The translations under genes and the position numbers were made by a program. A stretch of DNA of 64,000 bases from Zhongshania aquimaris (GTDB taxonomy: Bacteria; Pseudomonadota; Gammaproteobacteria; Pseudomonadales; Spongiibacteraceae), in assembly GCF_019312595.1 (NCBI RefSeq), contig NZ_JAHWDQ010000003.1:186001-250000 (forward strand), written 5' to 3'. Positions within the stretch are counted from its first letter, which is position 1, and every line of letters begins with the position of its first letter. The notes below the pieces were generated by a model. That model was not told where the DNA came from. It saw only the letters and a list, made by a program, of their open reading frames with translations, and searched no databases. Below are positions 9,106-46,299 of this stretch, in pieces.

Positions 9106-9108
9106 GGC

Positions 9109-10227: not shown

Positions 10228-10296
10228 TCTGATACCTCATTTTGTATTACTTATTTTTATTGATAACTTAACTAAGCTTTTTTAAGGTGAATCTGC

Positions 10297-10881: not shown

Positions 10882-11279
10882 GTATCCCTTGTTCCTGTTT
10901 GATCTTCCATAGGCTAAATCGAGAAAATCATTTAAAAGAGTCATTGTCAGCAAGCGCATTCAAAAAGCGACTTATGACCCACAATGGGTCATATTATGCA
11001 AATCGAGCGGATTGTCAACGTAAATCAAATATCGAGGTGAAGCTGAACCTGCTTCGGAAAGCACATTGTGACCGTAATAGGTGAAGGCATGGCGGGAAAT
11101 TAATCAAAGGCTGACTTCTAGCCCATGACTTACTATCGAAAAGTGGAGTTTATGGGGTAGCGCTAAGAAATTAAGCACCAGCAATAGTATTACTGCGCAA
11201 TCAAAGTTAAGCGAACGGAAAGCACGTTTCAGTCGGGTCAGAATTGAAGTGTCTTAAGCTACTATTCTCGGGAGATAGC
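10882..11279. other. Intergenic region between the inserted operon and the FleQ-like gene
   Basis: Besides the inverted repeat at 10973-10993, no gene, strong hairpin or repeat was found in this 398-bp stretch. It forms the second junction between the metabolic operon and the flagellar locus. No transposon ends or direct repeats were recognised. Confidence 0.55.
10973..10993. promoter_or_regulatory. Candidate operator for the TetR regulator
   Basis: A perfect 9-bp inverted repeat, TATGACCCA-CAA-TGGGTCATA, lies about 92 bp upstream of the TetR start codon. Size and symmetry suit a TetR dimer. The assignment is inference from position and shape. Confidence 0.6.
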
Positions 11280-12386
11280 TTACAACACGCCAAGCTTCTT
11301 CATTTTTTCTGCCAGCGTAGTGCGCTGTAAACCAAGCAGCTGTGCTGCGCGGGTTATTACGCCCTCTTCCTTGCGCAGTGCTTCAGTGATAAACCACTGT
11401 TCGATATCCTGTAGATAGGATTTTAGGTCAATACCTTCAGCAGGCAGCGGCGGCTTGCTGCTGTCGCCCACCGACAGCGCCACTTCGAAATCCGCCTCGC
11501 AGGGGCGTGACATCAGTGACGTAATTAAGACGTCTTGATCTTCGCGCTCATCTTCAACCGTTAGATCAATCATTCCCATGGTTCGAAACTGCTTAGGGAG
11601 ATCATTCATACCTATCAGTTTGCCAGCATGAGTAATGGCTAGGCGCTCCATTAAGTTCTCGAGCTCGCGAATATTGCCAGGCCAGCCATACAATTTTAGG
11701 GCGCGCATCGCGCTTGAAGAGAAGCGCGGCGTACGCATACCTTTGGCTTCTAATTTTTCCATAAAGATCGACATCAATGTTGCCACGTCTTCGGTGTGCT
11801 CTCTTAGCGCCGGTACCTCGATGGGGAATACATCTAAACGATAAAATAAATCCTGACGGAAGGTGCCCGCCTCGACCATTTGTTCAAGGTTGCGGTGAGT
11901 CGCAGCCAATATACGGACATTGCATTTTTTGGTTTCGTTGCTTCCAACCCGCTCAAAGCAGCGCTCTTGCAATACCCGCAGTAGCTTAACCTGCATAGGT
12001 AGGCTCATATCGCCGATTTCATCCAGAAACAGGGTGCCGCCCTCTGCGAGCTCAAAACGCCCCTGGCGTGTAGCAATAGCGCCAGTGAAAGCCCCCTTTT
12101 CGTGACCAAACAGCTCACTTTCTAATAAGTCAGCCGGAATTGCACCGCAGTTAACCGGGATAAATGCTTTTGCTGCCCGTGAAGATGCTTCATGAATACG
12201 ACGGGCTACGACTTCTTTGCCGCTACCAGATTCGCCGCGAATAAGTACTAAAGTGTCAAAGCTCGATACCTGAGAAATCAACTCATCAAGATCGCGCATT
12301 GCTTTTGACTCCAGGGACTTTTTGGCAATTAAATCATAGCCATCTGAGATTAATTTTTTATTCTGTTGCATTGAAATCTCACTCAT
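11280..12386 (-). CDS. fleQ: FleQ-type flagellar master regulator without N-terminal receiver-like domain
   Basis: This sigma-54 activator is very similar in its AAA+ core to FleQ. Walker A GESGSGKE is at 51-58, GAFTGA at 98-103 and Walker B TLFLDE near 118-123, with the VERLAI-like ENLMERLAITHAGKLIG stretch and a C-terminal Fis-type helix-turn-helix (AAQLLGLQRTTLAEKM). Length is 368 residues against about 490 for Pseudomonas FleQ. The difference is the missing N-terminal FleQ domain. A TGA codon lies in frame directly before the ATG, so no upstream extension is possible. The first segment of the c-di-GMP site in Pseudomonas FleQ (LFRS) appears as LIAK by my alignment. The gene lies next to the fliDST genes as in Pseudomonas. 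Confidence 0.88.
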   Translation of the reverse strand: MSEISMQQNKKLISDGYDLIAKKSLESKAMRDLDELISQVSSFDTLVLIRGESGSGKEVVARRIHEASSRAAKAFIPVNCGAIPADLLESELFGHEKGAFTGAIATRQGRFELAEGGTLFLDEIGDMSLPMQVKLLRVLQERCFERVGSNETKKCNVRILAATHRNLEQMVEAGTFRQDLFYRLDVFPIEVPALREHTEDVATLMSIFMEKLEAKGMRTPRFSSSAMRALKLYGWPGNIRELENLMERLAITHAGKLIGMNDLPKQFRTMGMIDLTVEDEREDQDVLITSLMSRPCEADFEVALSVGDSSKPPLPAEGIDLKSYLQDIEQWFITEALRKEEGVITRAAQLLGLQRTTLAEKMKKLGVL

Positions 12387-12582
12387 TCAATGAAAGTAGC
12401 GCACAACAGTTGTAACTAAGTATTCGTTTGTTGTGACGGCTTAGATAACGATGAGGAAATCTCGCCACATCGTCAATAGGACTATTGTGCAGAATTTACG
12501 GGAGGGAAGAGAATACGTGAATGTCCTAGGTTCTATAACGCGATACTACACAAACTAAGTGAGTAGCTTGTGCATGCCTCTT

Positions 12583-12924
12583 TTAGCTATTGCTTAAATA
12601 GCGACCAACATTGCGGATATTGCGGCAGGACTGATTGGCCTCGTGAGCCAAACTACCACGTTGGCGATACAGCATTTCACTCACAAGCTGATCGACGGCT
12701 AGAATATTTTCTATTGCACTGGCAACGTCACTGCTCTCTGCAGGGGAGCAAGGCGTTGCAAAAAACTCATCCATAAGCACTCGGCGCCGTCGCTGTTCGC
12801 TAAGCGCGGCCAGCCAGTCATTGCTCTCTGCCAGCTCTCTTATATACTCGGTAAGCTCCACAAGCGCCTGTAGGCTTTGCTGTCTAGCGGTCAATGCAGT
12901 GCTTATATTTTTTATATTATTCAT
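12583..12924 (-). CDS. FliT-like flagellar chaperone (by position)
   Basis: A 113-residue, mostly helical protein with no signal peptide. Its position between fliS and the fleQ gene is that of the second fliS/fliT-like gene of Pseudomonas. The helical heptad-like pattern (ALTARQQSLQALVELTEYIRE at the start) and small size fit a FliT-type chaperone for the cap protein. No sequence motif proves it, so the call rests on context. Confidence 0.6.
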   Translation of the reverse strand: MNNIKNISTALTARQQSLQALVELTEYIRELAESNDWLAALSEQRRRRVLMDEFFATPCSPAESSDVASAIENILAVDQLVSEMLYRQRGSLAHEANQSCRNIRNVGRYLSNS

Positions 12925-13001
12925 TAGTCACCTTAGAGATGCCCCACCCGCAGTCTGCGCACCGCGGACAGAGCAAAAACCTACACCTAAAAGAAATACC
13001 G

Positions 13002-13436
13002 TTACATTGTGAGCGCCGCTAAACTCTCGCCCTTGCCAGTGTTCTGTAAACCGTCGGGAATGGCATCCCATGCTTCTTTCAATTCACGCAATAAGGAGGA
13101 GACTTCGTCTAAACCGGTGACGTCGTTATTGATGTTTGCCAATAAGAGACGACGATTCATATAGTCGTATAAGCTCTCTAAGTTATCGCTCATTTTAGCG
13201 TCAATATTATGATCTAAGCTCATTCGCAAGCCGTCGATTATCGACATAGTGCGGTTTACTGCATTTATCTTCTGAGGCACTTCATGGCGCTGCATATGAC
13301 CTTTGGCAATTGCAAGCCGATCAAGCGCACCATCCATTAACAGTTGAATTAAGCGGTGTGGACTCGCTGCCGACACCCTGGATTGGGCCCCTACTGATGC
13401 GTATGCTTGAGTCGCTCTACCTGCTGAATAACTCAT
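13002..13436 (-). CDS. fliS: Flagellin export chaperone FliS
   Basis: FliS binds the C-terminus of unpolymerised flagellin in the cytoplasm. The 144-residue protein has the family features: Y-rich N-terminus (YSAGRATQAYASV), SPHRLIQLLMDGALDRLAIAKG, and LRMSLDH followed by LESLYDYMNRRLLLANI. It lies between fliD and the fliT-like gene, about 100 bp after fliD. Confidence 0.95.
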   Translation of the reverse strand: MSYSAGRATQAYASVGAQSRVSAASPHRLIQLLMDGALDRLAIAKGHMQRHEVPQKINAVNRTMSIIDGLRMSLDHNIDAKMSDNLESLYDYMNRRLLLANINNDVTGLDEVSSLLRELKEAWDAIPDGLQNTGKGESLAALTM

Positions 13437-13536
13437 AATCTTTCCTCTTGATAAGCCCCTTTGCTTATCCTAATTGACGACTTTTCAGCGGATTTCTTTA
13501 GTCTTTTATCGAGGTATTTATACGTATAAAAGCCTT

Positions 13537-14937
13537 CTACTTACCATTTTTAAACACGGTACCGGGCAAGTTTGCCAGCTGCTGAGTGAGAAAGTCGCCG
13601 GTTGAATTAAGCTGCCCCAGCAGGCTATCTAGTGCGCTAAACTGAGCTTGGTAGCGAGCTTCGATTCCAACGATACGGGCATTCAAGGCTTCTCGTTGCT
13701 CATTAATCCGCTTGACTTGACTGGTAAGGCCGTCGGTGCGATTCGTCAAAATACCGCCGCTTGCGGTGAGGTCGCCAATTAAGCTATCGAGACGAACTGC
13801 ATAGCCGGATTCGCTAGAAAATATTCCGCTTAATTTATCAAAATCATCGGCTACGACATCAGCAAACACTGTAGTGTCGATAACCAATTTGTTTTTATCA
13901 CCGGTGGTGATGCCTATTTCCGCTAGCGAGTCGAGCTCAGTCCCCAAGCCGCTCACTATCGTTCCCATTTCTTGGCGCAATTGATTGGCTACACTGCGCG
14001 TTGCTGAATCGCCCTGCAATAATCCCGCGGTTTTAGATTCCGGGTTGTAGGCAGTCAGGTCGTTTATGGTGGTCATCAGGGTATTATAATTGTTTACAAA
14101 ACCCTCGATCGCACTCTTAACCGATTTAGTATCTACTTGCACTTTAAGGCTAAAGCTTTCACCTGGCAGCGCTTTTTTCAGGTCTAAACTTACGCCCTCG
14201 ATCATGCCTTCAATTTTGGTATCTGCACTGGTTTTGGTGAAACCGTCAACGATGACAATGGAATCTAAGGCCTCTGCTTTCTCAACCATTGAACTAAGTT
14301 GTGAACCTAGATTGGTATCGTATGCGAGCTGGCTCAAGTCACCATTAGCTCCGGCGGTGACAGAAATATTAATGGCATTCTCAACACCGGTTCTTGTTGC
14401 AGAAAAAACCAGGTGGGCGCCGTCTTGATCATTAATAATTGACGCGCTTACACCACTGTTAGCCGCTGAGGAATTCACCGCGTCACGTATTTCCGCCAGG
14501 CTATCCGCCCCCTCGGCGACAGCGACTGAAAATGATTCACCATTGATAGTGAAGTTTAACTCCCCACTGCCGACACTGGTGGTGCTATCGGTATACGCTT
14601 GCGACGCTATTTTATGGCTTGTCGCCAATTGTTCTACTTTAACTGAATAGGTGCCAGGCGCTGCTGTTGCGGTGGTCGTTGCGGAAAACACCGTGGGATC
14701 GCCAACGGTCGCACTACGTTTGGTAAAGCTTTCAGGGTTTTTAAGTGTACTGAGGCTAGCTTTGAAGTTTGTTAGGGCAGATTTAAGGGATCCAAACGCC
14801 GATAGACGCGCCTGAATTAATGATTCCTTGGAGTTTAATCTTGTTTCCACTGGGCTGCGTTCGGCAGCAACAAGCTGTGAGACGATACTATTAATATCGA
14901 GCCCTGAACCAATTCCCGATGCGGTTAAAGATGCCAT
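13537..14937 (-). CDS. fliD: Flagellar cap protein FliD
   Basis: FliD caps the filament tip and folds incoming flagellin. The 466-residue protein starts with the conserved ASLTASGIGSGLDINSIVSQ. It carries a flagellin-IN-type repeat in the middle (GTYSVKVEQLATSHKIAS region) and ends with a coiled C-terminal domain containing RYQAQFSALDSLLGQLNS. It precedes fliS in the usual order. No dedicated sigma-54 or sigma-28 site was recognised in front of it. Confidence 0.95.
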   Translation of the reverse strand: MASLTASGIGSGLDINSIVSQLVAAERSPVETRLNSKESLIQARLSAFGSLKSALTNFKASLSTLKNPESFTKRSATVGDPTVFSATTTATAAPGTYSVKVEQLATSHKIASQAYTDSTTSVGSGELNFTINGESFSVAVAEGADSLAEIRDAVNSSAANSGVSASIINDQDGAHLVFSATRTGVENAINISVTAGANGDLSQLAYDTNLGSQLSSMVEKAEALDSIVIVDGFTKTSADTKIEGMIEGVSLDLKKALPGESFSLKVQVDTKSVKSAIEGFVNNYNTLMTTINDLTAYNPESKTAGLLQGDSATRSVANQLRQEMGTIVSGLGTELDSLAEIGITTGDKNKLVIDTTVFADVVADDFDKLSGIFSSESGYAVRLDSLIGDLTASGGILTNRTDGLTSQVKRINEQREALNARIVGIEARYQAQFSALDSLLGQLNSTGDFLTQQLANLPGTVFKNGK

Positions 14938-34756: not shown

Positions 34757-35908
34757 TTAATCGAGGGTGCGTTTGTAGCGAAGCATGGCGATAAATACCA
34801 CCACAACCATAAATGCTGCAATTGCGGCTAAATCGATTCTCAAATCATTAAACTGCGCGCCTTTTAACATAATGCCCCGCACTACCCGCAAAAAATGCGT
34901 TAAGGGCAGCACCTCTCCAATCACCTGCGCCCACATGGGCATACCGCGAAATGGGAACATAAAACCCGACAACAGCATCGATGGCAAAAAGAAAAACACC
35001 GTTAATTGCATAGCCTGAATTTGCGTTTTTGCAATGGTTGAAAAAGTAAAACCGAGTGCCAAATTGGCAACAATAAACAGCGCCACACTCACTAACAACA
35101 GACTGATACTACCTACGAACGGAACCGCAAATAGCCAATGTGCCACTAATAACACTATGACTGTCTGCACTGCGCCGACACCTAAGAAAGGTAGGATTTT
35201 ACCAACCATCACTTCAAACGGTGATCCCGGCATAGCGAGGAGGTTTTCCATGGTACCGCGCTCGGTTTCCCGCGTCATGGCCACACCGGTAATCATCACC
35301 AAGGTCATTGTTAAAATAACGCCGAGCAAACCGGGGACAATATTGTATTGGGTGATACCCTCGGGGTTGTATCTCGGGTGAAGCACTAAATCAACGGATC
35401 CAAGCTCCGACTTTAAATAGGATAGCGCCCCAGTAAAATCCTTGATTAGCGCTCTATTTACGATGGTATTCATGCGAGCAAGGGCGTTTGACGCAGCAAC
35501 CGGATCACTTGCATCGGCCGCGACCAGCAACTGAGGTCGTTCTCCGCGGATAAGCCGCTCGGTAAATCCGCTGGGAATTTCGATGACAAATACCACCTCA
35601 CCGCTGGCAAGTAAATGCTCCCCGTCTCTCGCATCGGATATATTGGTACTTACATCGAAATATTCAGAATTAACTAAACCCGCAATAAGGCTGCGCACTT
35701 GTGGTGTAAATTCTTCAGCGTGCACCGCGGTAGGCAAGTGTTTTGGATCCGTATTTATCGCATAACCAAATAGCACCAGCTCCAAAATTGGAATTGCTAA
35801 CATCACCGCAAATGTCAGTCGATCACGCCGCATCTGGATAAGTTCTTTTATAAACACGGCATTTATTCTAGCGAAATTTAGGCTTTTACGATGTCGCTTA
35901 CTGTTCAT
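34757..35908 (-). CDS. ABC transporter permease (ABC-2 type)
   Basis: This inner-membrane permease belongs to an export ABC system of the YhhJ/YbhSR kind. The 383-residue protein has one N-terminal span (VMLAIPILELVLFGYAI), a long periplasmic segment of about 120 residues, and five C-terminal spans. The ABC-2 signature is in the region MTRETERGTMENLLAMPGSP. Its start overlaps the ATPase gene by 4 bases. With only one permease gene present, the transporter is probably a homodimer. Confidence 0.9.
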   Translation of the reverse strand: MNSKRHRKSLNFARINAVFIKELIQMRRDRLTFAVMLAIPILELVLFGYAINTDPKHLPTAVHAEEFTPQVRSLIAGLVNSEYFDVSTNISDARDGEHLLASGEVVFVIEIPSGFTERLIRGERPQLLVAADASDPVAASNALARMNTIVNRALIKDFTGALSYLKSELGSVDLVLHPRYNPEGITQYNIVPGLLGVILTMTLVMITGVAMTRETERGTMENLLAMPGSPFEVMVGKILPFLGVGAVQTVIVLLVAHWLFAVPFVGSISLLLVSVALFIVANLALGFTFSTIAKTQIQAMQLTVFFFLPSMLLSGFMFPFRGMPMWAQVIGEVLPLTHFLRVVRGIMLKGAQFNDLRIDLAAIAAFMVVVVFIAMLRYKRTLD

Positions 35909-36834
35909 GTGTGACTCCGCCGATCAGCGCCGGTCTGCTCCATCAAGGCAATAAATACATCTTCTAAGCTCGGACGAATTTCCTGCCAGTGATAGCCATC
36001 CATCGCGACAGAATTCACCGCCCGCTCCAGCAGCGATCGATCGTGCCCGCAAATATGTAAACCGGCGGCAAAATAGGCGGCATACTCAACCCCTGGCAAT
36101 TTTTTAATTCGCGGTTCTAAAGCCCTTACACCCACCCCCTCAGCACGGAAACTGATCAGACCAGATTGATCGATAATGTCGGGCACGGTGCCTTCGGTAA
36201 TTAAGTTGCCATGGGCAAGATACACAATGTGATCACAGCGCTCCGCCTCATCCATATAGTGCGTAGACACCAATACTGTCATACCGTTATTTGACAGCCG
36301 GTGAATTTGATCCCAAAAATCGCGGCGGGCCTGAGGGTCTACACCAGCTGTAGGCTCATCTAAAAGAAGTAATTCTGGTTTATGCATCGTAACTGCAGCC
36401 AAGGCCAAACGCTGCTTCCAACCACCAGACAAGGCGTCTGCCAATTGATGCTGGCGATGCGCTAAACCCAAAACCTCTAATGTATCGTTAACAGAGCGAC
36501 GACGATTTTTAAGCTCGTAAATTCTGGCCACGAACTCAAGATTTTCGCGCACAGTTAACTCGTTCCAAAACGAGAATCTCTGCGTCATATACCCAGTGTG
36601 GCGACGAATTAACTCGGCGTCTTTGCGCAAATCAAGCCCTAGACAGTTCCCCTCCCCCTCGGTCGCCTTGAGGAGTCCGCAAAGCATTCTTATGGTGGTG
36701 GTTTTACCTGAACCATTCGGGCCAAGAAATCCCCAGACTTGTCCTTTAGGCAGATGTAAATCTACTTTGTTTACCGCTATTTTATTGCCAAAGTGCTTAC
36801 TCAAACCGCTCACATCGATAGCCAGCTCAGTCAT
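35905..36834 (-). CDS. ABC transporter ATP-binding protein
   Basis: The ATPase of the export system. ATG at 36834 gives 309 residues beginning MTELAIDVSGLSKHFG; the longer frame reads through the end of the HlyD gene and is rejected. Walker A GPNGSGKTT is at 38-46. The signature LSGGWKQRLAL and Walker B LLLLDEPTAGVD are intact, followed by a C-terminal extension of about 90 residues typical of drug-export ATPases. It overlaps the HlyD gene by 8 bases. Confidence 0.95.
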   Translation of the reverse strand: MTELAIDVSGLSKHFGNKIAVNKVDLHLPKGQVWGFLGPNGSGKTTTIRMLCGLLKATEGEGNCLGLDLRKDAELIRRHTGYMTQRFSFWNELTVRENLEFVARIYELKNRRRSVNDTLEVLGLAHRQHQLADALSGGWKQRLALAAVTMHKPELLLLDEPTAGVDPQARRDFWDQIHRLSNNGMTVLVSTHYMDEAERCDHIVYLAHGNLITEGTVPDIIDQSGLISFRAEGVGVRALEPRIKKLPGVEYAAYFAAGLHICGHDRSLLERAVNSVAMDGYHWQEIRPSLEDVFIALMEQTGADRRSHT

Positions 36835-37789
36835 GACTCGCTGCCTGCAAAAACACATCGACCGGCTGGCCTGCATGCAAGCCACTTGCTGAGGGCAATC
36901 TAGCTTCAATAAGAAAAACCAGCTTTTGTCGCGACGCAACGCTGTAAATCACCGGCGGAGTGTATTCTGTTTGGCTGGCAACATAGGTAACTGTGGCACT
37001 CACTGGCTCAGCTACGCCGTCCTGCTTTATGCTCAACTGGACTCCCGCAGAAAAACGAGGTAACTCACTTTGCGGCACAAAAAAGCGTACTTTTAAGGCA
37101 TCGTTCGGAAGTAAGGCTAAGGCAGGTGAACCTGCCGATATTTGTTCACCTTTGCGAAAATAGACCTGTTCAACACGGCCAGCTCGAGGCGCAAGCACCG
37201 TCCGCTGTTCCAAACGCCACTGTGCGCGATCAACGTTTGCCTGGGTCGTTTTAAATGCTGCCAGTGCGGCCGACACAGCGTTTTCGCGGGATGCCAATTT
37301 CGCGAGTCGGATTTGGGCGTCAATATTATCGAGCCGCGCGTCGGCGGCATTAAACTCCGTAATCGCTTTATCTACCGTCGCCTGTGCAGTAAGCCCTTTT
37401 TTGCGCAGCGACTCTATACGACGCCTCTCCACATCGGCTAAGGATCTTGCAGCGACTGCCTCTTTACGCTGTGCATCTAAGCGATTAATTTCGTCAGGCC
37501 GGGCGCCGGTGGCTAAATCACGGTAGTGCGCCTCTGCCTGCGCAGCTCGCATTTTCACTTCATCTAAATCAAAGCGCTGCCGATCTTTATCAAGCTCGAA
37601 GAGTACTTGACCTGTTTCAACAACATCGCCCTGATTTACGCTGCTGGCAACTATCCAACCTGACTCTAGAGCGCTAATGTAAATATACTCAGCTTCGACA
37701 TAACCACTAATACCATCGAGTTGAGACGCTTCATCGCAGCCAAAAATGAACAATAGCGGGATTACACTCATATACTTTAGCCACGACAT
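36827..37789 (-). CDS. HlyD-type membrane fusion lipoprotein
   Basis: This periplasmic adaptor links the ABC exporter to the outer membrane. ATG at 37789 has AAGGA at good spacing and places a lipoprotein signal at the N-terminus (VIPLLFIFGC); the frame is open 15 codons further upstream. The 320-residue protein has the biotinyl-lipoyl half-motif (SGWIVASSVNQGDVVETGQV) and a long coiled-coil hairpin. The return half-motif (LAPRAGRVEQVYFRKGEQIS) follows. No outer-membrane channel gene is next to it, so a TolC homologue elsewhere is presumably used. Confidence 0.9.
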   Translation of the reverse strand: MSWLKYMSVIPLLFIFGCDEASQLDGISGYVEAEYIYISALESGWIVASSVNQGDVVETGQVLFELDKDRQRFDLDEVKMRAAQAEAHYRDLATGARPDEINRLDAQRKEAVAARSLADVERRRIESLRKKGLTAQATVDKAITEFNAADARLDNIDAQIRLAKLASRENAVSAALAAFKTTQANVDRAQWRLEQRTVLAPRAGRVEQVYFRKGEQISAGSPALALLPNDALKVRFFVPQSELPRFSAGVQLSIKQDGVAEPVSATVTYVASQTEYTPPVIYSVASRQKLVFLIEARLPSASGLHAGQPVDVFLQAASHD

Positions 37790-37919
37790 ACCTATTTCCT
37801 TATTCAAACGCCAGGATTCAAGCATCGACTTCACATATTATAAAAACGTTAAACGCGATTGGAATTGACGCAGAGCTTTGTTCCCGTTTTATTATTTTGT
37901 TTCTACGAGCAAATAAGTA

Positions 37920-37970: not shown

Positions 37971-38002
37971 AAAGGGCCAGACCGTTGCCGGTCTGGCCCT
38001 TT
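37971..38002 (-). terminator. Strong intrinsic terminator after the repeat-protein gene
   Basis: A 14-bp perfect stem (AAAGGGCCAGACCG/CGGTCTGGCCCTTT) with a TTGC loop lies 39 bp after the stop of the minus-strand gene. On that strand it is followed by TTAGTTTT. It may work in both directions. Confidence 0.85.
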
Positions 38003-38040: not shown

Positions 38041-39447
38041 TTAGATAGGTAGTGGCAGTGCATCAAGACCTGGGATTGGAAGTGCATCCAAACCTGGCAG
38101 TGCATCAAGACCTGGGATTGGAAGCGCATCCAAGCCTGGCAAGCCACCGGCACCGCCGCCAGCACCTGGGATTGGCAGCGCGTCTAGGCCAGGAATTGGC
38201 AGAGCGTCAAGACCTGGAAGTCCGCCGTCAGCCAGCGCCATCAAGTTTTCCTGCAAATGGCCAGCTAACACCTCGAACTGACCAGGAATCAACATCGCAG
38301 CAGCCTGAATCGCATCTTGATCAGCAGTTGGCAACAGATCGATAACATCGGTCAACTTATCAGTTACACCGTCAAAGCCGCCAAGATCATCCAGCGCGGT
38401 ATCCACTGCGAAGGTCAGTTGACCTAGCTTCTCTGCACCAGCCGCCAAATCAAATGGAAGTGCATCTAAACCAGGAACACCAGCCGCACCGCCGCCAGCA
38501 CCAGGAATTGGCAGAGCATCTAAACCGGGGATTGGCAATGCGTCTAAGCCTGGAAGCCCACCAGCAGCAAGCATATCAAGACCTGGGATTGGCAGTGCGT
38601 CTAAACCTGGAATCGGTAAGCCGCCAAAGCTTGGAATTCCACCGTCAGCGCCGCCGGGAATTGGCAAACCGCCCAATATATCTAGACCAGGCAATGCGTC
38701 CAAGCCAGGGATAGGAGCGCCGCCACCGAGTGCGGTCAGGTTAGAAGTCAAATGGTCGACAGTAGCACGAAGCTGATCACCAACAAAGAATGACCCTGCA
38801 TTGATTGTGTCGATATCAGCAGTCGAAAACGCGACAACTAAATCGGTTACTTTGTCAGTAACTCCGTTCGCACCAACAACATCATTCAATGCCGTGTCGA
38901 CTGTGAGTGTTAATTGGCTTAATTGTTCTACACCCGGAGCACCACCGCCGCCGCCACTTAAGCCTGGAATCGGCAGAGCATCAAGACCTGGAATTGGCAA
39001 TGCATCTAGACCGGGAACTCCGCCGCCTGCGCCGCCGCCACCTAAGCCAGGAATTGGCAGTGCGTCAAGGCCGGGGATTGGCAATGCGTCTAAACCAGGT
39101 AATCCACCGCCAGCCAAGGAATCCAAACCAGGAATCGGCAATGCGTCTAGACCGGGCAGTCCGCCCGCGCCGCCGCCACCGGCACCTGGAATTGGCAGAG
39201 CGTCAAGACCGGGGATTGGCAATGCATCCAAACCTGGCAGTGAATCCAAGCCAGGAATACCACCACCAGACAGCGCGCCAAGTTGGTTATCAATCTCAAC
39301 GAACTGAATAACGACTGCGTCTAAAGGGGTACCCGCCACCGCACCGGCAAGCGGAGAGATAACGACCGCAAATGGACCCGCTTGCACCGCACCTGCGGTG
39401 GCCATCAGCGAAGCCATAAGGGTCTTCTTAAAAGGTGAGTTCATCAT
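38041..39447 (-). CDS. Exported PGLDALPI-repeat protein, unknown function
   Basis: I do not recognise this 468-residue protein. It has a signal peptide (KKTLMASLMATAGAVQA). From residue 64 on it is dominated by an octapeptide with consensus PGLDALPI; about 22 PGLD copies occur in three blocks (roughly 64-172, 244-333 and 410-468), separated by Gly-rich linkers such as GAGGGGAGG. Two homologous modules of about 70 residues interrupt the blocks, at 173-241 and 338-407. Both share QLT-VDTAL, GVTDK-TD, and a final helix ending in L-AL. It has no Cys, no membrane span and no sorting signal I can name. Base usage is skewed by the repeats. It is likely surface or matrix material. Confidence 0.85.
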   Translation of the reverse strand: MMNSPFKKTLMASLMATAGAVQAGPFAVVISPLAGAVAGTPLDAVVIQFVEIDNQLGALSGGGIPGLDSLPGLDALPIPGLDALPIPGAGGGGAGGLPGLDALPIPGLDSLAGGGLPGLDALPIPGLDALPIPGLGGGGAGGGVPGLDALPIPGLDALPIPGLSGGGGGAPGVEQLSQLTLTVDTALNDVVGANGVTDKVTDLVVAFSTADIDTINAGSFFVGDQLRATVDHLTSNLTALGGGAPIPGLDALPGLDILGGLPIPGGADGGIPSFGGLPIPGLDALPIPGLDMLAAGGLPGLDALPIPGLDALPIPGAGGGAAGVPGLDALPFDLAAGAEKLGQLTFAVDTALDDLGGFDGVTDKLTDVIDLLPTADQDAIQAAAMLIPGQFEVLAGHLQENLMALADGGLPGLDALPIPGLDALPIPGAGGGAGGLPGLDALPIPGLDALPGLDALPIPGLDALPLPI

Positions 39448-40005
39448 ATATGCGCGCTCTTGTAGAATGTTTTTATCATTTAGCGTCTTAAACTTTAATT
39501 AACTGACGCTTATCCTGAGCTGCGATGGTACGGGTTTATACCTATACAAAAGCGTGCCGCAGTTCACACTTTTTGACTTCCCCTGAATGCAGTGACCACA
39601 TTGAGGGCAAACATTGCACCATTCACTAGCAAAATAGATTCAGATTGTCTTGTCACGACACCAACATAACCAGCTATATCCCAGCAAATATAAGCGAATA
39701 GTCCCCCGCTATCGGTATGTAAAAAATGTCGCTCGCTCTGCCCTGCAGCCATTTGCCCATAGCATCAGCGCAATGAGAGCTCCCTGCCTAATAATAGATC
39801 GCTCTGCCGTACAAATGGCAAGTATCTTCAAGTATGCCGTGCAATAGAAGACACTATGGCCGCTAACCGAGAGATGTAGTTGAGTGATGCCGCAATGCAT
39901 TTCCGGCCGAAGCAAAGTCCAAATAACAAGTGAGATGTGCTTAAATAACTTATAAACAAGCTAACTAAAAACAGAAATCTCCAGTCCCAATGACGAGCTT
40001 TAGCT
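39448..40005. other. Intergenic region between the repeat protein and epoxide hydrolase genes
   Basis: This 558-bp stretch must contain the promoters of two divergent genes, but I could not pick out a confident promoter, operator or small gene in it. Short open frames are present on both strands without ribosome sites or family resemblance. Confidence 0.5.
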
Positions 40006-41145
40006 ATGGATCGAGCCATTAAACCATTTCGAGTTGACATTCCTCAGTCACAACTAGACGACCTAAAGGCCAGACTTGCCAACACCCGCTGGCCCGACGC
40101 TGAGACCGTCGATGATTGGAGCCAAGGAGCACCGTTAAGCGCAGTAAAATCGCTATGCCAATACTGGCAGCACAGCTATGACTGGCGCCGATGTGAGCAG
40201 GAATTAAATGCCCACCCCCAGTTCACCACCGAAATAGACGGATTAGACATACACTTCTTGCATATTCGCTCGCCCCACGACAATGCTCTGCCCATGCTCA
40301 TGACCCACGGTTGGCCCGGTTCCGTACTCGAGTTTATGCGGGTGATTGGCCCACTGACAAACCCCACTGCCCACGGCGGCAGTGCCAAAGATGCGTTTCA
40401 CTTGGTGATTCCCTCCCTACCGGGCTACGGGTTCTCTGGTAAACCCAGCGCGACAGGCTGGGGACTAGAACGCATTGCACAGGCGTGGATCACGCTTATG
40501 GCTCGCTTGGGTTACTCCAAATATGTTGCCCAAGGCGGAGACTGGGGATCCGGTGTCACCACCGCTATCGCTCGTATAGAACCACCTGAATGCCTAGCAA
40601 TCCATATCAATATGGCATTAGCACAGCCAACCGCCGATGATATGGCTTCGCTGACAGAGCGCGACAAAAATGCATTGGCGGATGTTAAGCATTATTTCGA
40701 CAATGACTCCGGCTACGCAATGATTCAAAAATCTCGGCCGCAATCATTAGGCTATGGTCTAGCGGACTCTCCCGTCGCACAAGCAGCGTGGATATATGAG
40801 AAATTTCATGGCTGGACAGACAACAAAGGCCGGCCTGAGGATGCACTTTCCAGAGATCAAATGCTCGACGACATCAGTATCTACTGGCTCACAAACAGTG
40901 GCGCGTCGTCTGCCAGACTCTACTGGGAAAGCTTCCACAGTCTACTTGCAGAACCCATCACCATGCCTTGTGGTGTTTCAATATTTCCGAAGGAATTATT
41001 CAGACCTGCACGCCAGTGGGTTGAGCGACTTTATCAAAACTTGATTCACTGGAACAATGTTGAAAAAGGCGGCCATTTCGCCGCTTTTGAGCAAGCAGAA
41101 ATTTTTGTAAATGAGGTGCGCGCTTGTTTTGCGAAAATTCGATAG
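40006..41145 (+). CDS. Epoxide hydrolase (EHN domain, alpha/beta fold)
   Basis: The enzyme hydrolyses epoxides to diols. The 379-residue protein has the N-terminal epoxide-hydrolase domain (IKPFRVDIPQSQLDDLKARL and NTRWPDAE). The oxyanion-hole motif HGWPGS is at 101-106, the nucleophile Asp179 in GGDWGS, and the catalytic His357 in GGHFAAFEQ. This matches microsomal-type bacterial epoxide hydrolases. It has no signal peptide. It may serve in degradation of hydrophobic compounds together with the neighbouring lipase, which is inference. Confidence 0.93.
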   Translation: MDRAIKPFRVDIPQSQLDDLKARLANTRWPDAETVDDWSQGAPLSAVKSLCQYWQHSYDWRRCEQELNAHPQFTTEIDGLDIHFLHIRSPHDNALPMLMTHGWPGSVLEFMRVIGPLTNPTAHGGSAKDAFHLVIPSLPGYGFSGKPSATGWGLERIAQAWITLMARLGYSKYVAQGGDWGSGVTTAIARIEPPECLAIHINMALAQPTADDMASLTERDKNALADVKHYFDNDSGYAMIQKSRPQSLGYGLADSPVAQAAWIYEKFHGWTDNKGRPEDALSRDQMLDDISIYWLTNSGASSARLYWESFHSLLAEPITMPCGVSIFPKELFRPARQWVERLYQNLIHWNNVEKGGHFAAFEQAEIFVNEVRACFAKIR

Positions 41146-41157
41146 TGACGATCAATC

Positions 41158-41173
41158 GGGCTCCTAAGAGCCC
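41158..41173. terminator. Terminator between convergent genes
   Basis: The stem GGGCTC-CTAA-GAGCCC is followed by TATTAGCCTTTT and then a second short hairpin (GCCTT/AAGGC). It lies between the epoxide hydrolase and the convergent lipase gene and could serve both. Confidence 0.55.
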
Positions 41174-41200
41174 TATTAGCCTTTTAAATAAGGCAAACGC

Positions 41201-42136
41201 CTACCAATGTTTGGCAATAAACTCGCACAATTTGTTTAGTGCAACTTTGCTTTCAGGCAAAATCGACATCAGCTGCATGTCATGACATTGCCCAGGCCAA
41301 ATATCAATTTCTACTGTAACCCCTGCTTCCCGCGCTTTTTCGGCGCCCACAATCGCCACATCTCTCAGCAACTCGGTCTCGCTCGCAGTGAAGTACATCG
41401 GCGGGTAGCCACTAAAAGACGCAAGTAAGGGCGACACAGCAGGGTCAGTGGTATTGTGTCCGTCTAGATATAAACTCCGAAAAAACAAAAACGAACTTAA
41501 ACGGAACATGGGATCTCGACCCTCATTTTGAAAAAGGGACGCCCCCGACAAAGTCCAATCCCCAGCGGGTGAAAATAGACTCGCCGACGTCGGCATGGGT
41601 AAATTTTCTTCCCTTATTTTGGCAAGAATCGATAATACCAGCCCGCCACCTGCTGAATCACCCAACAAAGCGATATGATCGGCTGCCACTCCCTTATCTA
41701 GCAGCATTTTGTAACTCTCGAAACAATCTTCTATGGCCGCTGGATGCGGGTGCTCAGGAGCCAAACGATAGTCTGGCAGCACACCGATGGCACCAAGGTT
41801 GTTACAGATACCTGCCAGCATCGACCGATAAGTATTTGGCGAACGCAAGCAGTAAGCGCCACCATGAAATAACAAAACGTGTTTTGCCTTGATAGGATCA
41901 TCGCTAAAATCGATAGTTTGTAAAACATCTGTCTGGCAGTGAGATAAATCTACCTGACTGATACGGCAAAGCCTCTCCGCATTTCCCACAAGACGTTCGT
42001 CAAGCTTTGCAAAACGTCGCCGAAGTGCCATCAGTTGTCCGTGGTTTCTTATAGGACGCCGGATTAGCCTCAGTACAAAATTCAGGAGCCGGCTGCGAAT
42101 ACTTTGCTTCATCAATACGTCCTTATAAGCGTCCAT
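41201..42136 (-). CDS. Alpha/beta hydrolase of the hormone-sensitive lipase family
   Basis: This 311-residue esterase/lipase has the HSL motif HGGAY at 91-95, DYRLAPEHP at 122-130 and the nucleophile elbow GDSAGGG with Ser161. The catalytic Asp is probably in SETELLRD and the His in GQCHDMQ near the C-terminus. An N-terminal basic stretch (residues 10-45) resembles that of membrane-associated members. It lies 41 bp after a TetR gene on the same strand and is probably regulated by it. Confidence 0.92.
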   Translation of the reverse strand: MDAYKDVLMKQSIRSRLLNFVLRLIRRPIRNHGQLMALRRRFAKLDERLVGNAERLCRISQVDLSHCQTDVLQTIDFSDDPIKAKHVLLFHGGAYCLRSPNTYRSMLAGICNNLGAIGVLPDYRLAPEHPHPAAIEDCFESYKMLLDKGVAADHIALLGDSAGGGLVLSILAKIREENLPMPTSASLFSPAGDWTLSGASLFQNEGRDPMFRLSSFLFFRSLYLDGHNTTDPAVSPLLASFSGYPPMYFTASETELLRDVAIVGAEKAREAGVTVEIDIWPGQCHDMQLMSILPESKVALNKLCEFIAKHW

Positions 42137-42177
42137 TAAAAAATCAATTTATTACAGGAATTACCTCAAGCGAAAAT

Positions 42178-42810
42178 TCAAGGTGCTATGTATTCAGCGA
42201 CAAATGAATTAATCGTTTTTTGAGCAGTTTTTGACGTCGCTCCGCAAAAGCGCATATGAGCGATGGTATGCGCCATGCCCAAGATAATACGCGCTGCGTC
42301 TGAGGCTTGCAGGCTAGGTTTGATGGAATTATCAGCGCGTCCTTCCAGAAGTAGCTTGCGCAATGCAACTATCGTGGCAGTGTAAAACTCTTTGTATAGC
42401 TCCCAAATAGGTCCCTTGGTGGAGCCGCTCCACTCGAGCCAAATTGTTACATAATTCCTATCCGTATCGACCGACTTGGCAAATGAAGACAGCATGTCTT
42501 CAACACGCAGATGCACGGGGGCCTCCACATCTGTGCGGACTATAACAAAGCCCTCTAGTAAAAAGCGGCGCACTTCTTTAATCACTTCCGACTGAAGATC
42601 GTCAATAGTAGGAAAATAGTGGAATACGGTAGGACTAGCAACGCCGGCAAGTTTGGCGATATCGGCATGAGTTGCTTTTTCAATACCCTGCTTAGCAAAC
42701 ACGTCGACCGCACACATCAAGATTTGTTGACGCCGCGCCTCTGGCGACATGCGTTTTGCCCGTGTTTTGACCAAAGTATTGTCCTCCGCTGATTTTATTT
42801 TCCTTGCCAC
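42178..42810 (-). CDS. TetR family transcriptional regulator
   Basis: A 210-residue TetR-type repressor. The DNA-binding domain is clear: RRQQILMCAVDVFAKQGIEK, ATHADIAKLAGVASPTVFHY and FPTIDDL. The ligand-binding part is variable. It precedes the lipase gene on the same strand (41-bp gap). The likely operator is the short dyad at 42923-42936. Confidence 0.93.
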   Translation of the reverse strand: MARKIKSAEDNTLVKTRAKRMSPEARRQQILMCAVDVFAKQGIEKATHADIAKLAGVASPTVFHYFPTIDDLQSEVIKEVRRFLLEGFVIVRTDVEAPVHLRVEDMLSSFAKSVDTDRNYVTIWLEWSGSTKGPIWELYKEFYTATIVALRKLLLEGRADNSIKPSLQASDAARIILGMAHTIAHMRFCGATSKTAQKTINSFVAEYIAP

Positions 42811-42922
42811 ACCCTCACCTCTTTATATTCCGCTGGACGATGCCGGCAACAAGATCTTACAAAGGCATCACCCGTGAAAATAACTATGACATCCAACATC
42901 GACAGTGTCTGATTTTATAGCA

Positions 42923-42936
42923 TAAACAAGCGTTTA
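42923..42936. promoter_or_regulatory. Candidate operator of the lipase-linked TetR
   Basis: TAAAC-AAGC-GTTTA, a short dyad 113 bp upstream of the TetR start, resembles the AAAC-N4-GTTT type sites bound by PsrA-like TetR proteins. The arms are short, so chance is possible. Confidence 0.35.
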
Positions 42937-43192
42937 CACATTCACTAATTACCCTGCCCAGCAACGTCGATACAAACAAGCCGCAATAATAGCGCATTTT
43001 TATGCCTGCGCCCCACATTGTTAACAGTGCAATAATTGAGACAGCCGGAATGATGTTTTCTGAGAAATGTTAGAATCTGGCGGTTAGCATCAAATGAACA
43101 CCTCGAATATTAGGAGCTTGGATGTGAGTGCTGAATTTGGGGTACTGTCGCCTTGTAGTGCGATGTTTACGTAATGGAGGGAACGGGATGCG

Positions 43193-43330
43193 CTAGGCTT
43201 CTAAATTAAAACGATTGAACGCGTCGGCGACCTGCTTGCCGAGATATACCATCAAAACGCAAATACTCAAGATCAAACACAAAAGAAGTATTCGCCATAA
43301 AAAATCAAATATGATGGCTTTGGAATTCAA
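43193..43330 (-). CDS. Possible small single-span membrane protein (TTG start)
   Basis: From a TTG codon the frame encodes 45 residues with one strongly hydrophobic segment (FLWRILLLCLILSICVLMVY) followed by a polar tail GKQVADAFNRFNLEA. A TGA lies three codons before the TTG, so no longer version exists. There is no good Shine-Dalgarno sequence and no ATG. It could be a true small membrane protein or a decayed gene end. The call is tentative. Confidence 0.3.
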   Translation of the reverse strand: MNSKAIIFDFLWRILLLCLILSICVLMVYLGKQVADAFNRFNLEA

Positions 43331-43391
43331 CGATAATCAAATTTACCGCGAGCATCTATGCTACATTCCCCGCCTAGACGATTAGTTTTTA

Positions 43392-43413
43392 AATTGCGCT
43401 TTCAAGCGCAATT
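43392..43413. repeat. 22-bp palindrome
   Basis: AATTGCGC-TTTCAA-GCGCAATT is a perfect 8-bp inverted repeat; two more bases pair across the loop. It lies about 170 bp downstream of the TpsB-like gene. It lacks a T-run on the minus strand, so it is an uncertain terminator and may instead be a binding site. Confidence 0.5.
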
Positions 43414-43585
43414 CACCTACTCCCTACCAGTGGTTGGACAGCCATAAGCAAGCCTCAATTAATATGCGGATAGTAAGTATGGGAAAAGTATCCCATCAAA
43501 ATCCCATGACCGCAGATACCAGAGAGACACGTAAAAAGCGGTTTACGAAAGCAGCTCTAAACACGGACTGATTAAAAAATCAGAT

Positions 43586-45271
43586 TTAGAAAGTGAGGGA
43601 TAGACGCCAGTAAAAATCAACTTCAAGCTGCGACAAGGAATCCTCATCCAAATTGTCATCATAAACCGGCTTGGCAGCGACTATTTCAGTGACAAAATAT
43701 TTACCTAGCTCAGCCTTTACACTAAGTCCAGCATCGGCAATTGCGCGCGTATTGCCGGCCTCACCAGCGGCATTTTCGAACCATGCTTGGCCATGCTCCA
43801 CATAGACTGCCGGCGTAACGGTCATGCCAAATAATGGCAAGCCATTACTTTCAAAGGCTAACTTAGTATAACTACCTGAATCACCTACCAATACACCGGG
43901 CAAATACGCGTTTAGCCCCGCCGCGCCCCCCAAGAAAAACTGTTGCTGCAGGGGCAGTTGCTCGTCATTCGAGAATTGCGCGATGACGTCTGCCTTCAGT
44001 GTGACCCAATCACTCACCGCCATTTTGAGGCCGAAGCGAGGTTTAAACAACAAATACTCACCGGTCCGACGGCCAGTAGCGACCACACCTTCACGGGTAT
44101 CTGTGCTTAGCGTTCCAGCATCTGACTCTAAGCCAGCCTCGACGAAACCCTGAGCGGTGATTTGACTGCCCACGCCAAACAGACGAATTAACTGATTATA
44201 TTTTAGGCCAAGTTCCAGGCTTGTTTGGGGCTCATCAAGTACGTTGCCGAACCCCTCTATATCAATCACGCTATCTACTTTTTCCAAACGCTGAGAGACC
44301 GTGAAACGATGCAGCGCATCACTACTGACCACCTGTTCACCGGTAAGAGCAATCGTCGTTGCCTCAGCAACCAAACGCAACCCGACCTGCTCAGTTGTCC
44401 CTCCGCCAATACTTAAGCCCAAACCACCTGTCAACTCGCAAACCAAGGGAATCGTGCACAACAGACTATCGATAGCGCTCGGGCCAGCTACTAAGCCATC
44501 AGCATCACGTTCGTATTCTATATAGCGCGCCTCAATACCATATAGGCCAAAGCTACTGGGATAATTTAGCTTAAATGTATAGCCGTTATAGTATTGACCA
44601 CCGCTCACTTCACCGAACTCCGTCAGTGCACGGTCATAGGAAAGCGAGGCTTCCACGCCACTCTCAAAATCGTGTTTTAAGCCTGCATTGGCAAAGTAAC
44701 GGCCCAAGAACCGATTACCGAAATTATTGGCGCTTAGACTTAGATCCGTACTATCGTGGTCTTCTTTTTTTGCTTCTGTTAGCACGATAGTAAATGCAGT
44801 TGGATCCTCTGAAAGCTGGTAGGTAACCGCGTAGTTTAAACCGGCACGATCACTTTTTAGATTGGCTAAGACCCGCTTGGTATCAAATTCAGTGCGTGTT
44901 AAATCCTGATCACCTATTAATCCCGAAAAATAGGGAGATATACTTTCTGGCGCCTTTATTGCCGATAAATGACCATTTATAACGTGGGCATAAATAACGT
45001 TATCGCGATGCGCAAAATACACCGTAACCAGTAAATGGCCCAACTGGTAATAGGCTTGATTTAAGGCATTAACGGCCTGTGCAGGCGTTTTAGCCACGCC
45101 CATAATCAAGTCAATTTGTTCACGAGTGAGGTAGCGATTTCCAGAAATTCGCAGATCGTAGCCGCCAACTTTCACATCAATAATTGAATCCGATTGCGCC
45201 GCAGCGTATTGCTCAATACGCTCTGCGGTTGACGCCTGCGGCGGGATTACGGGTGGTAAATCGATAGCCAT
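43586..45271 (-). CDS. Divergent TpsB/ShlB-type outer-membrane transporter without signal peptide
   Basis: The protein has the layout of two-partner-secretion transporters. An N-terminal proline-rich linker (LPPVIPPQAS) is followed by a POTRA_2-like domain (about 31-104, GYDLRISGNRYLTREQI) and a second POTRA-like part to about 168. A beta-barrel ending in Phe561 completes it. The loop-6 region reads FFLGGAAGLNAYLPG at 446-460, where most members have V/I-R-G-Y/F; the conserved Arg is Asn here. No signal peptide precedes the domain: a TAG lies seven codons before the ATG, and the ATG has GGAG at correct spacing. It follows an OmpA-like gene by 35 bp. No TpsA gene with a secretion domain is adjacent. 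Confidence 0.8.
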   Translation of the reverse strand: MAIDLPPVIPPQASTAERIEQYAAAQSDSIIDVKVGGYDLRISGNRYLTREQIDLIMGVAKTPAQAVNALNQAYYQLGHLLVTVYFAHRDNVIYAHVINGHLSAIKAPESISPYFSGLIGDQDLTRTEFDTKRVLANLKSDRAGLNYAVTYQLSEDPTAFTIVLTEAKKEDHDSTDLSLSANNFGNRFLGRYFANAGLKHDFESGVEASLSYDRALTEFGEVSGGQYYNGYTFKLNYPSSFGLYGIEARYIEYERDADGLVAGPSAIDSLLCTIPLVCELTGGLGLSIGGGTTEQVGLRLVAEATTIALTGEQVVSSDALHRFTVSQRLEKVDSVIDIEGFGNVLDEPQTSLELGLKYNQLIRLFGVGSQITAQGFVEAGLESDAGTLSTDTREGVVATGRRTGEYLLFKPRFGLKMAVSDWVTLKADVIAQFSNDEQLPLQQQFFLGGAAGLNAYLPGVLVGDSGSYTKLAFESNGLPLFGMTVTPAVYVEHGQAWFENAAGEAGNTRAIADAGLSVKAELGKYFVTEIVAAKPVYDDNLDEDSLSQLEVDFYWRLSLTF

Positions 45272-45306
45272 GCTTACTCCAAATTTCTATTATCTTGGCT
45301 CGAGAT

Positions 45307-46299
45307 TCAGCGCTGAGTCCGCCCGTCAAGTGAACGCAGTTCTACTCGCCGGTTGTGCGTACGCGCTTTGCTGAGGGCACTGCCTTTAAGTCCGTCGATG
45401 GAAATCAGAGGCTGTGACTCACCGTAACCCTTAACCACTAACAATTTTGCGGGAACACCTTCTGCCACCAAATATGTCTTAACAGCTTGCGCGCGCCGTT
45501 CTGACAGTAATTGGTTGTCAGCGAGACTACCAACATCATCGGTATGTCCCGCGAGTTCAATTTTTCTGAGCGGTATAAATTTTATAATCCTCGCCACTTT
45601 GCTCAAGGTAGCGGCAGACGACTCAGTGAGTACCGCCGTGCCCGCCGCGAAGGTAACTCCCTGCAACGCAAGCGGTTTAGCGGGATCAAAGTGGCAGCCA
45701 GAAGGCAAGACAATGGCCCCCGCTGGAGTACCTAAACAGCGGTCCTCGCTGTCGCAAACGCTATCTTTATCTCTATCGATACAAGCACCCGGCTTGTCGC
45801 CTGATAACACCGCCAACACATCAGGATTAGAGGCAGTTAGCCGATCTTTTGTGTTATCAACGTCCGGCGACGCTGGCTGCCCATTTGACCCTGGTAAAGA
45901 CAGTGTTAATACGGTCGGGTTAATATCTCCCATTGCCGTATCTTGCAAAAACTCCAGCACTGCGCCTTGTGAACCATCAACAGCGCCTGTTAGGCCTGAC
46001 AAATCGCCAACGCCAGCACCGCCCGCCACAGGAGCGCCCAGCAGCAATATATCTTGACCGCTAAGGTTAACGCCGAGTAGAGCATCAGAGCCAAGCAGCT
46101 CAATACTTAGCAAGTCCATGCCACCGCTATCGGCGCTTAGTAAGTTAATGTCCGCTAATACGTCATTCACCGGTGCGGTGAGTGACGCCCCCAAAAGCTC
46201 GACATTTACTAATTGTGCACGCGCAGTTAATGACATAGCTGAAACTATGGGCACCAGAGCTAGCATTAAAAACCGTGTCACTAAAACCAAGTTAATCAC
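45307..46299 (-). CDS. OmpA-family protein with unusual N-terminal region
   Basis: This 330-residue exported protein begins with a signal peptide ending near LTARA. The N-terminal 140 residues form a Leu/Gly/Ser/Asp-rich region with repeated LLG units (VELLGASL, IELLGSDALLGVNLSG, DILLLGAP) that I cannot assign. A short calcium-binding-like segment DRDKDSVCDSEDRC (175-188) is typical of thrombospondin-3 linkers before OmpA domains. The C-terminal OmpA peptidoglycan-binding domain (about 213-325) is clear: IELAGHTDDVGSLADNQLLS and RAQAVKTYLVAEGV. It lies directly upstream of the TpsB-like gene in an apparent operon. Confidence 0.88.
   Translation of the reverse strand: MINLVLVTRFLMLALVPIVSAMSLTARAQLVNVELLGASLTAPVNDVLADINLLSADSGGMDLLSIELLGSDALLGVNLSGQDILLLGAPVAGGAGVGDLSGLTGAVDGSQGAVLEFLQDTAMGDINPTVLTLSLPGSNGQPASPDVDNTKDRLTASNPDVLAVLSGDKPGACIDRDKDSVCDSEDRCLGTPAGAIVLPSGCHFDPAKPLALQGVTFAAGTAVLTESSAATLSKVARIIKFIPLRKIELAGHTDDVGSLADNQLLSERRAQAVKTYLVAEGVPAKLLVVKGYGESQPLISIDGLKGSALSKARTHNRRVELRSLDGRTQR

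Follow-up and report, generated by a model that had tools for sequence, protein, structure and literature searches.

An acidic repeat protein, an OmpA-type protein and a TpsB-like protein

The window, the 64,000-nucleotide stretch of Zhongshania aquimaris DNA that was analysed, carries on its reverse strand a gene for a protein in which three blocks of PGLD repeats alternate with two modules predicted to be helical. We refer to this protein as the exoprotein and to its gene also as the module gene. At a distance of ~4-6 kb lies a pair of genes (43589-46299) for an OmpA-type protein and a protein related to FhaC and ShlB, henceforth TpsB-like (Table 1).

Table 1. Features of the exoprotein gene and of the OmpA-type/TpsB-like pair in the window
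Feature	Position	Strand	Basis
Exoprotein CDS	38041..39447	(-)	468 aa + stop; relatives in genus; module dN/dS
Probable Sec signal peptide, residues 1-23 (AVQA/G)	39379..39447	(-)	by eye; similar layout in relatives
N-terminal segment, residues 24-62 (GPFAVVISPLAG...GTPLD...D-QL)	39262..39378	(-)	comparison with relatives
Repeat block 1: 9 PGLD units, Gly-rich linkers	38938..39258	(-)	repeat count
Predicted helical module 1, residues 175-243	38719..38925	(-)	module profile, E 7.2e-29
Repeat block 2: 7 PGLD units	38455..38712	(-)	repeat count
Predicted helical module 2, residues 340-408	38224..38430	(-)	module profile, E 3.9e-31
Repeat block 3: 6 PGLD units	38044..38220	(-)	C-terminal GLDALPLPI, as in close relatives
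Intrinsic terminator	37971..38002	(-)	14-bp stem, 9 G-C pairs
FhaC/ShlB-like (TpsB-like) protein, 561 aa (stop excluded)	43589..45271	(-)	PF03865 3.5e-5; hhalign
OmpA-type protein, 330 aa (stop excluded), TSP3-like stretch by eye	45310..46299	(-)	PF00691 1.7e-20

The leader of the exoprotein, judged by eye, consists of KK, a hydrophobic core and AVQA followed by G, and those of its relatives are alike. This leader and the 14-bp stem of the terminator agree with the earlier description of the product as exported, and constraint on the modules backs a real gene. The terminator scan gave three terminator-like sites where 3.1 were expected, the other two having only 6 pairs. Upstream, the strand of the gene showed no promoter-like site of consensus type. 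In composition the protein is acidic: Asp (44) and Glu (5) outnumber Lys (5) and Arg (1). It contains no Cys, and its repeat part has a mean Kyte-Doolittle value of +0.69, hydrophobic on average yet acidic. The N-terminal segment is present in most relatives and missing from two (G011 and G014), and the small repeat proteins described below have a shorter form of it (GPLAPVI...QL) behind their leader. Residues 43-60 had been taken for the end of a third module; hhalign gives this a probability of 0.2%, and these residues are part of the separate N-terminal segment.

PGLD repeats and helical modules

PGLD occurs 22 times in the exoprotein, at residues 65-153 (9), 247-325 (7) and 411-459 (6), which bears out the earlier estimate of about 22 units in three blocks; shuffling its residues 2000 times gave a mean of 0.19 and a maximum of 3. 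The full octapeptide PGLDALPI is present in 14 copies. Spacing is exactly 8 residues in 9 of the 21 successive PGLD pairs, and within blocks the spacings are 6, 8, 11 and 18-27, so that with PGLDALPI as the unit the repeats are neither of the elastin-like VPGXG type nor the uninterrupted G-X-Y of collagen-like proteins. At the DNA level no two of the 14 octapeptide units are identical (pairwise nucleotide identity 0.58-0.96), and this variety of synonymous codons means that the repeat is kept at the protein level. TRF also detected larger duplications of 42, 84 and 138 bp in the DNA of the gene.

The two modules, each of ~69 residues, are related to one another (alignment score 166 versus 27.8 +/- 5.5 in shuffles, z ~25). 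The limits given by a profile built from 14 modules (A1) differ by about two residues from those of the duplicated 70-residue module that the earlier note had recognised. Nine positions are invariant in this profile (T6, D10, D15, D24, T27, D37, L59, N62 and L63). For six pairs of modules dN/dS was 0.156, 0.116, 0.036, 0.069, 0.065 and 0.134, a seventh pair having no valid dS and four of the dS values (1.69-2.44) lying near saturation. By these ratios the module is under purifying selection, which supports a real gene. AlphaFold2 modelled the modules of the whole exoprotein as helical and the repeats as coil, with no strands, at a pLDDT of 34.8; a single-module model reached 57.5. The best of 19 Foldseek matches to the structure model had an E value of 2.9, with none at E<=0.001, and we use these models for nothing beyond the predicted helices of the modules.

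Relatives of the exoprotein

Sequence searches of Pfam, NCBIfam, PHROGs and the PDB returned no fitting family for the exoprotein, in line with the earlier impression of a repeated architecture outside known families. Chance or low complexity probably accounts for weak matches such as those to DUF826 (E 0.22), an FtsZ chain (0.019) and acyl carrier proteins (0.044). Searching with the module profile yielded relatives across the genus (the Zhongshania/Spongiibacter group), 16 of whose 18 genomes have the module, and in a 293-genome sample of the order the profile matched 12 genomes, 11 of them of the genus and one outside it (G118, E 1.8e-4). When genome contigs were scanned with one pattern, six relatives were recovered among 116 pattern matches, from Zhongshania (4), Neomelitea and Spongiibacter. 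A phage origin was considered; none of 130 stretches in viral contigs that match the pattern encodes a relative. We found no literature naming the repeats PGLDALP, DNPLQPLLDQ or PTGTPLDALL.

The match outside the genus, P0002 of G118, is a lipoprotein that scores 16.4 bits against the module, its nearest relative (G573) scoring 11.6-12.3 bits. P0002 and its relatives contain GPTGTPLD units, a motif that the exoprotein of G009 also has, and such lipoproteins occur in 8 of 61 genomes of the family to which G118 belongs. They differ from the exoprotein in their lipobox-like start, their cysteines and their architecture, and in most relatives of P0002 no module was seen. P0002 is a possible distant relative of the module family by its profile score; this homology is unsure because the other six ORF rows score at most 2.2 bits. 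Its 14-kb locus (L053) gave no TpsB or OmpA profile match. The loci of these lipoproteins, which belong to a different family of the order from the window's and of which one is weakly module-like, are L048/L053 and L122-L131, and proteins of the P0002 type presumably carry the database label 'collagen-like triple helix repeat'.

Small repeat proteins encoded at this locus (for example L052:6673-7179 and L096:2284-2817) share with the exoprotein a leader-like start, the GPLAPVI...QL beginning, units of the PGLDALPVDP type and hydrophobic last residues, for instance -IIPL or -LLPI. They differ from it in length, at 169-200 aa, and no helical module was seen in them.

Repeats turn over between species while charge composition is kept

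The repeat units differ between species. PGLDALPI is found in the clade of the window's species, PGLDALPVDP in G002 and G010, DNPLQPLLDQLQG in Spongiibacter, DNPAAALEAIPVLGPILADAAA in G004 and GPTGTPLDALLAPLADAAGG in G009; GPTGTPLDALLAPL is a further example of replacement. We compared composition outside the modules and the first 62 residues in 15 proteins, the sixteenth (from G007) being cut by a contig end. Lys and Arg are absent from this region in 14 of the 15 and amount to one residue in G009, acidic residues number 10-39 per protein, and none of the 15 family proteins contains Cys. Hydropathy varies, from +0.26 to +0.71 in 13 proteins to -0.38 and -0.40 in those of G012 and G013. Repeats thus turn over between species while charge composition is kept. 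This weakens the proposal that PGLDALPI itself is the functional material: relatives in the genus swap the units and keep the helical module.

By eye, PGLD-type repeats also adjoin another kind of C-terminal region in G013 (L055:6632-8173) and in G001, where two genes with such repeats stand in tandem (L056:6791-7975 and 8395-9615) and give no module match. With this different neighbour the repeats appear to behave like interchangeable spacers.

OmpA-type and TpsB-like genes accompany the module gene in part of the genus

Gene context was absent from the earlier interpretation. In Spongiibacter and Neomelitea (L035 and L036) the module gene is followed by a gene for an OmpA-domain protein and then by one for a 567-aa FhaC/ShlB-like protein; the profile matches in L036 are PF00691 at 1.1e-19 and PF03865 at 3.4e-9. 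Among the 16 genomes with the module, which are related genomes rather than independent cases and several of which are draft assemblies, an OmpA-like gene adjoins the module gene in seven (G002, G004, G007, G009, G010, G012 and G013; in G010 by coordinates only). The TpsB-like gene comes next after the OmpA-like gene in five of these seven, the exceptions, G004 and G009, having TpsB paralogues only. The neighbour in G009 is merely OmpA-like, scoring 15 bits against a Pfam cut-off of 27.2, and the adjacent OmpA-type gene of G007 (L045:875-1840, G007:C4) contains one in-frame TAG. In two further genomes other genes intervene between the OmpA-like gene and the module gene, over 1.1 kb (G014) and 2.2 kb (G011). 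The remaining six show no linkage, the genes lying on different contigs (G003, G005, G016 and G017) or at least 295 kb apart (G006 and G008). G001 and G015 have the OmpA-type/TpsB-like pair without the module.

A tree of 19 TpsB-like proteins groups the window's own with those of the six unlinked genomes (94/97, slightly below the threshold of the tool), as would be expected had the exoprotein gene left the locus a single time. In G005 (L034) the module gene comes after ArfB-TetR-lipase-epoxide hydrolase, and in G008 (L091) the order is TonB receptor-SnoaL-OmpA-TpsB-small repeat protein-kinase-regulator-PepSY (several names in both by eye). Given these arrangements, two halves of which appear recombined in the window's genome, the closeness of the exoprotein gene to the OmpA/TpsB-like pair in the window is probably a secondary rearrangement. 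A link to the TpsB-like gene drawn from proximity in the window alone was rejected on the orders in G005 and G008, and the case for the locus rests instead on the other genomes. Compared with G005 and G008, both 38041-46299 of the window and L052 (G000:C1:281000-295000) look rearranged, the OmpA/TpsB-like genes standing apart from the small-repeat-protein-kinase-regulator-PepSY group. By eye, histidine kinase, response regulator and PepSY genes lie beside the locus in L035, L054, L091, L094, L095 and L097, and kinase and regulator only in L096.

Properties of the TpsB-like and OmpA-type proteins

The TpsB-like protein of the window scores 23.8 bits against PF03865 (ShlB; cut-off 22.7), a profile matched by all 11 of the TpsB-like relatives at E<=0.1. 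Aligned by hhalign with eight canonical TpsB proteins, the TpsB-like proteins gave 99.6% (E 5.8e-24) over 450 columns, spanning 33-553 and covering both the POTRA-like part and the barrel; Pfam returned no separate match to a POTRA profile. No credible PDB relative of the TpsB-like proteins was found by sequence, one search giving none and another three unrelated chains at E 0.21. By profile and alignment, the third gene of the locus is homologous to genes for TpsB channels. The proteins end in an aromatic residue, as many outer-membrane barrels do.

TpsB-like genes occur at more than 30 places, and in all 30 loci that were fetched and scored (L057-L086) the protein begins M-ID(L/F)PP, with 0-29 in-frame residues upstream; the start MAID(L/F)PP is near-invariant, and many starts have GGAG or GGA just upstream. 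Simple hydropathy and inspection of the N-terminus revealed no Sec signal peptide in any of the 30, which makes an outer-membrane position doubtful. Canonical TpsB proteins have a hydrophobic stretch in the first 75 residues in 8 of the 8 scored (2.16-2.82). This score separates imperfectly, 3 of the 30 TpsB-like proteins reaching 1.76-1.97 in the first 45 residues and the exoprotein leader 1.63.

The OmpA-type protein of the window matches PF00691, the OmpA C-terminal domain, at 73.6 bits (cut-off 27.2). By eye, this protein, and not the exoprotein, contains a D-x-D-x-V-C-D stretch like a TSP3 repeat; Pfam TSP_3 gives 13.9 bits in the Spongiibacter OmpA-type relative, under the cut-off of 25, and is unlisted for the window protein.

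Comparable gene sets outside the genus

A profile of the TpsB-like proteins matched 13 of 229 genomes in a class-wide sample, the window's own included. In G411, from another order of the class, a Gly-rich exoprotein gene is followed by an OmpA-type gene and by a TpsB-like gene whose product begins MAIDLPP. G383 and its congener G506, likewise from another order of the class, have the order TpsB-like, Gly/Asp-rich exoprotein, OmpA-type, the OmpA-type gene of G506 being overlapped by a longer frame on the other strand. These three exoproteins resemble the window's in composition and position, and no module was seen in them (the profile was run on the G506 locus only). The weaker matches in the other nine genomes, outside the genus, amount to ten loci (L132-L141) that look like ordinary TpsB genes, so the system is not extended by them: no ORF of at least 60 aa in the stretches fetched matched the OmpA profile, and 7 of the 10 loci have a neighbour of at least 956 aa.

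Likeness to known secretion systems

In two-partner (type Vb) systems such as FHA/FhaC, ShlA/ShlB and CdrA/CdrB, of which CdrA is a TPS protein, a repetitive exoprotein is likewise secreted and accompanied by a member of the FhaC/ShlB family (PF03865). For CdrA a role as biofilm-matrix adhesin is described (PMC2847200, PMC6156197), and TpsA proteins as having an N-terminal TPS domain with NPNL/NPNG-type motifs (PMC5422565). In the exoprotein Pfam recognised no TPS domain at E<=1 and the NPN motif is absent, and by the TPS definition it is therefore not a TpsA; it may nevertheless work like one. TpsA forms a long beta-helix of repeats; the low-confidence model of the exoprotein (pLDDT 34.8) has helices and coil and no strands. 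A TpsA gene lies beside its TpsB gene; here only an OmpA-type gene stands between the two in 5 of 16 genomes, and 6 of 16 are unlinked. The locus differs from two-partner systems in having an OmpA-type gene in the set and TpsB-like proteins with no visible signal peptide, and the barrel motif of the latter reads LGG..GLSAYLPG..GDSG where the canonical consensus is RGY. FhaC is described as binding extended amphipathic segments at a POTRA groove, and the proteins secreted in such systems as long and rich in repeats (PMC5422565); by analogy uptake of extended segments would fit the exoprotein repeats in general. Two groups of TpsB are distinguished in PMC4104836, with no further domain profiles accompanying the TpsB barrel. 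The term 'ompa' is absent from the main text of that paper and of PMC5422565, and among the matches listed in the two-partner-secretion and OmpA literature no description of an exoprotein-OmpA-TpsB-like locus was found.

An OmpA-type partner beside a surface exoprotein also has a parallel in AtaA/TpgA of Acinetobacter, an adhesin with an OmpA-type peptidoglycan partner. The TpgA profile NF047726 scores 37.5 bits (E 1.5e-9) against the Spongiibacter OmpA-type protein, well short of the cut-off of 350. AtaA belongs to the trimeric autotransporters, whereas here the exoprotein is not an autotransporter and is accompanied by a TpsB-like protein.

A candidate surface or matrix protein and alternative explanations

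The reading we favour, tentatively and with slightly less than even confidence, is that the protein is an acidic surface or matrix exoprotein of an OmpA-coupled, two-partner-like locus, with an inferred export route and function. The gene would descend from the first gene of an [exoprotein]-[OmpA-type protein]-[FhaC/ShlB-like protein] locus, an ancestral place that we infer. Its product would be a Sec-exported, acidic, low-complexity protein whose ~69-residue, predicted-helical modules are spaced by flexible Pro/Gly/Leu/Asp repeats. The TpsB-like protein would help it to the cell surface, and the OmpA-type protein would tie the assembly to peptidoglycan. There it might serve as a surface coat or as biofilm-matrix or adhesive material, with modules that bind or self-associate and repeats that act as negatively charged spacers. 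Somewhat more doubtful is the wider proposal of an undescribed two-partner-like export branch. It would combine a leaderless TpsB relative, recognisable by its near-invariant MAID(L/F)PP start, with an OmpA-type partner gene that is always present and with acidic, low-complexity exoproteins that change fast and in which small helical modules replace the TPS domain and beta-helix.

The chief competitor, somewhat unlikely on present evidence, is that the exoprotein is exported to the surface, the periplasm or vesicles independently of the TpsB-like protein, its neighbours sharing regulation only. The six unlinked genomes and the lack of a TpsB orthologue in G004 and G009, which do have the exoprotein and an OmpA-like gene, speak for it, as do the two-component (kinase and regulator) and PepSY-like genes that by eye flank the locus. 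Two of the seven adjacent OmpA-like genes are also doubtful (G007 and G009), which lowers our confidence in the favoured reading and raises it in this one. Against it, genomes from another order of the class (G411, G383 and G506) again combine a low-complexity exoprotein with the two other genes in a comparable set.

That the exoprotein is an amphiphilic, surface-active coat for contact with hydrocarbons, like a protein biosurfactant, seems improbable: its hydrophobic yet acidic, Cys-free repeat part would suit such a role, and the name of a relative, Z. aliphaticivorans, suggests that some members may degrade alkanes, but the orthologues of G012 and G013 have hydrophilic repeats. We give still less weight to the earlier suggestion of a matrix protein that binds Ca2+ or mineral through regularly spaced Asp. 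Each unit does carry one Asp and basic residues are few, yet the exoprotein has no site of the D-x-D-x-D type, and neither spacing nor units are kept in orthologues. A chance ORF or a decaying gene is very improbable. Repetitive DNA can yield long low-complexity ORFs, and frames on the other strand are open for up to 168 aa; against this stand module dN/dS well under 1, relatives throughout the genus, varied synonymous codons and the terminator.

Should the three genes of the locus function together, as in the favoured reading, type Vb secretion would come to include a substrate with no TPS domain, a leaderless channel-like protein and a peptidoglycan anchor. The locus would also offer a clear case of linker repeats exchanged between species with charge composition kept, and a family of exported proteins absent from the libraries searched would gain a name. 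The exoprotein itself may be a new type of material at the cell surface or in the matrix.

Other genes in the window and its genome

Right after the exoprotein gene, at 34757-37834 (-), lie genes for an HlyD-type adaptor, an ABC ATPase and an ABC-2 permease. HlyD/ABC genes were considered as the exporter; they adjoin the exoprotein gene in the window, L033 and L034 and do not in L031 and L032. At 42178-42810 (-) the window encodes a regulator of TetR type with some likeness to the HapR/LuxR quorum family, its 95.6 bits lying far below the cut-off of 350. The window's genome has three more TpsB-like genes on G000:C1 (L087:4771-8183, L088:1840-6308 and L089:4385-6969), and each of them immediately follows an OmpA-type gene that has a variable part of its own, for example LAPLTDPLLGALQPITDP in L088. 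Near the small repeat protein of L052 (G000:C1) is a gene for an RHS-repeat protein with a Tle1-like phospholipase domain (9296-13999; PF05593 and PF09994).
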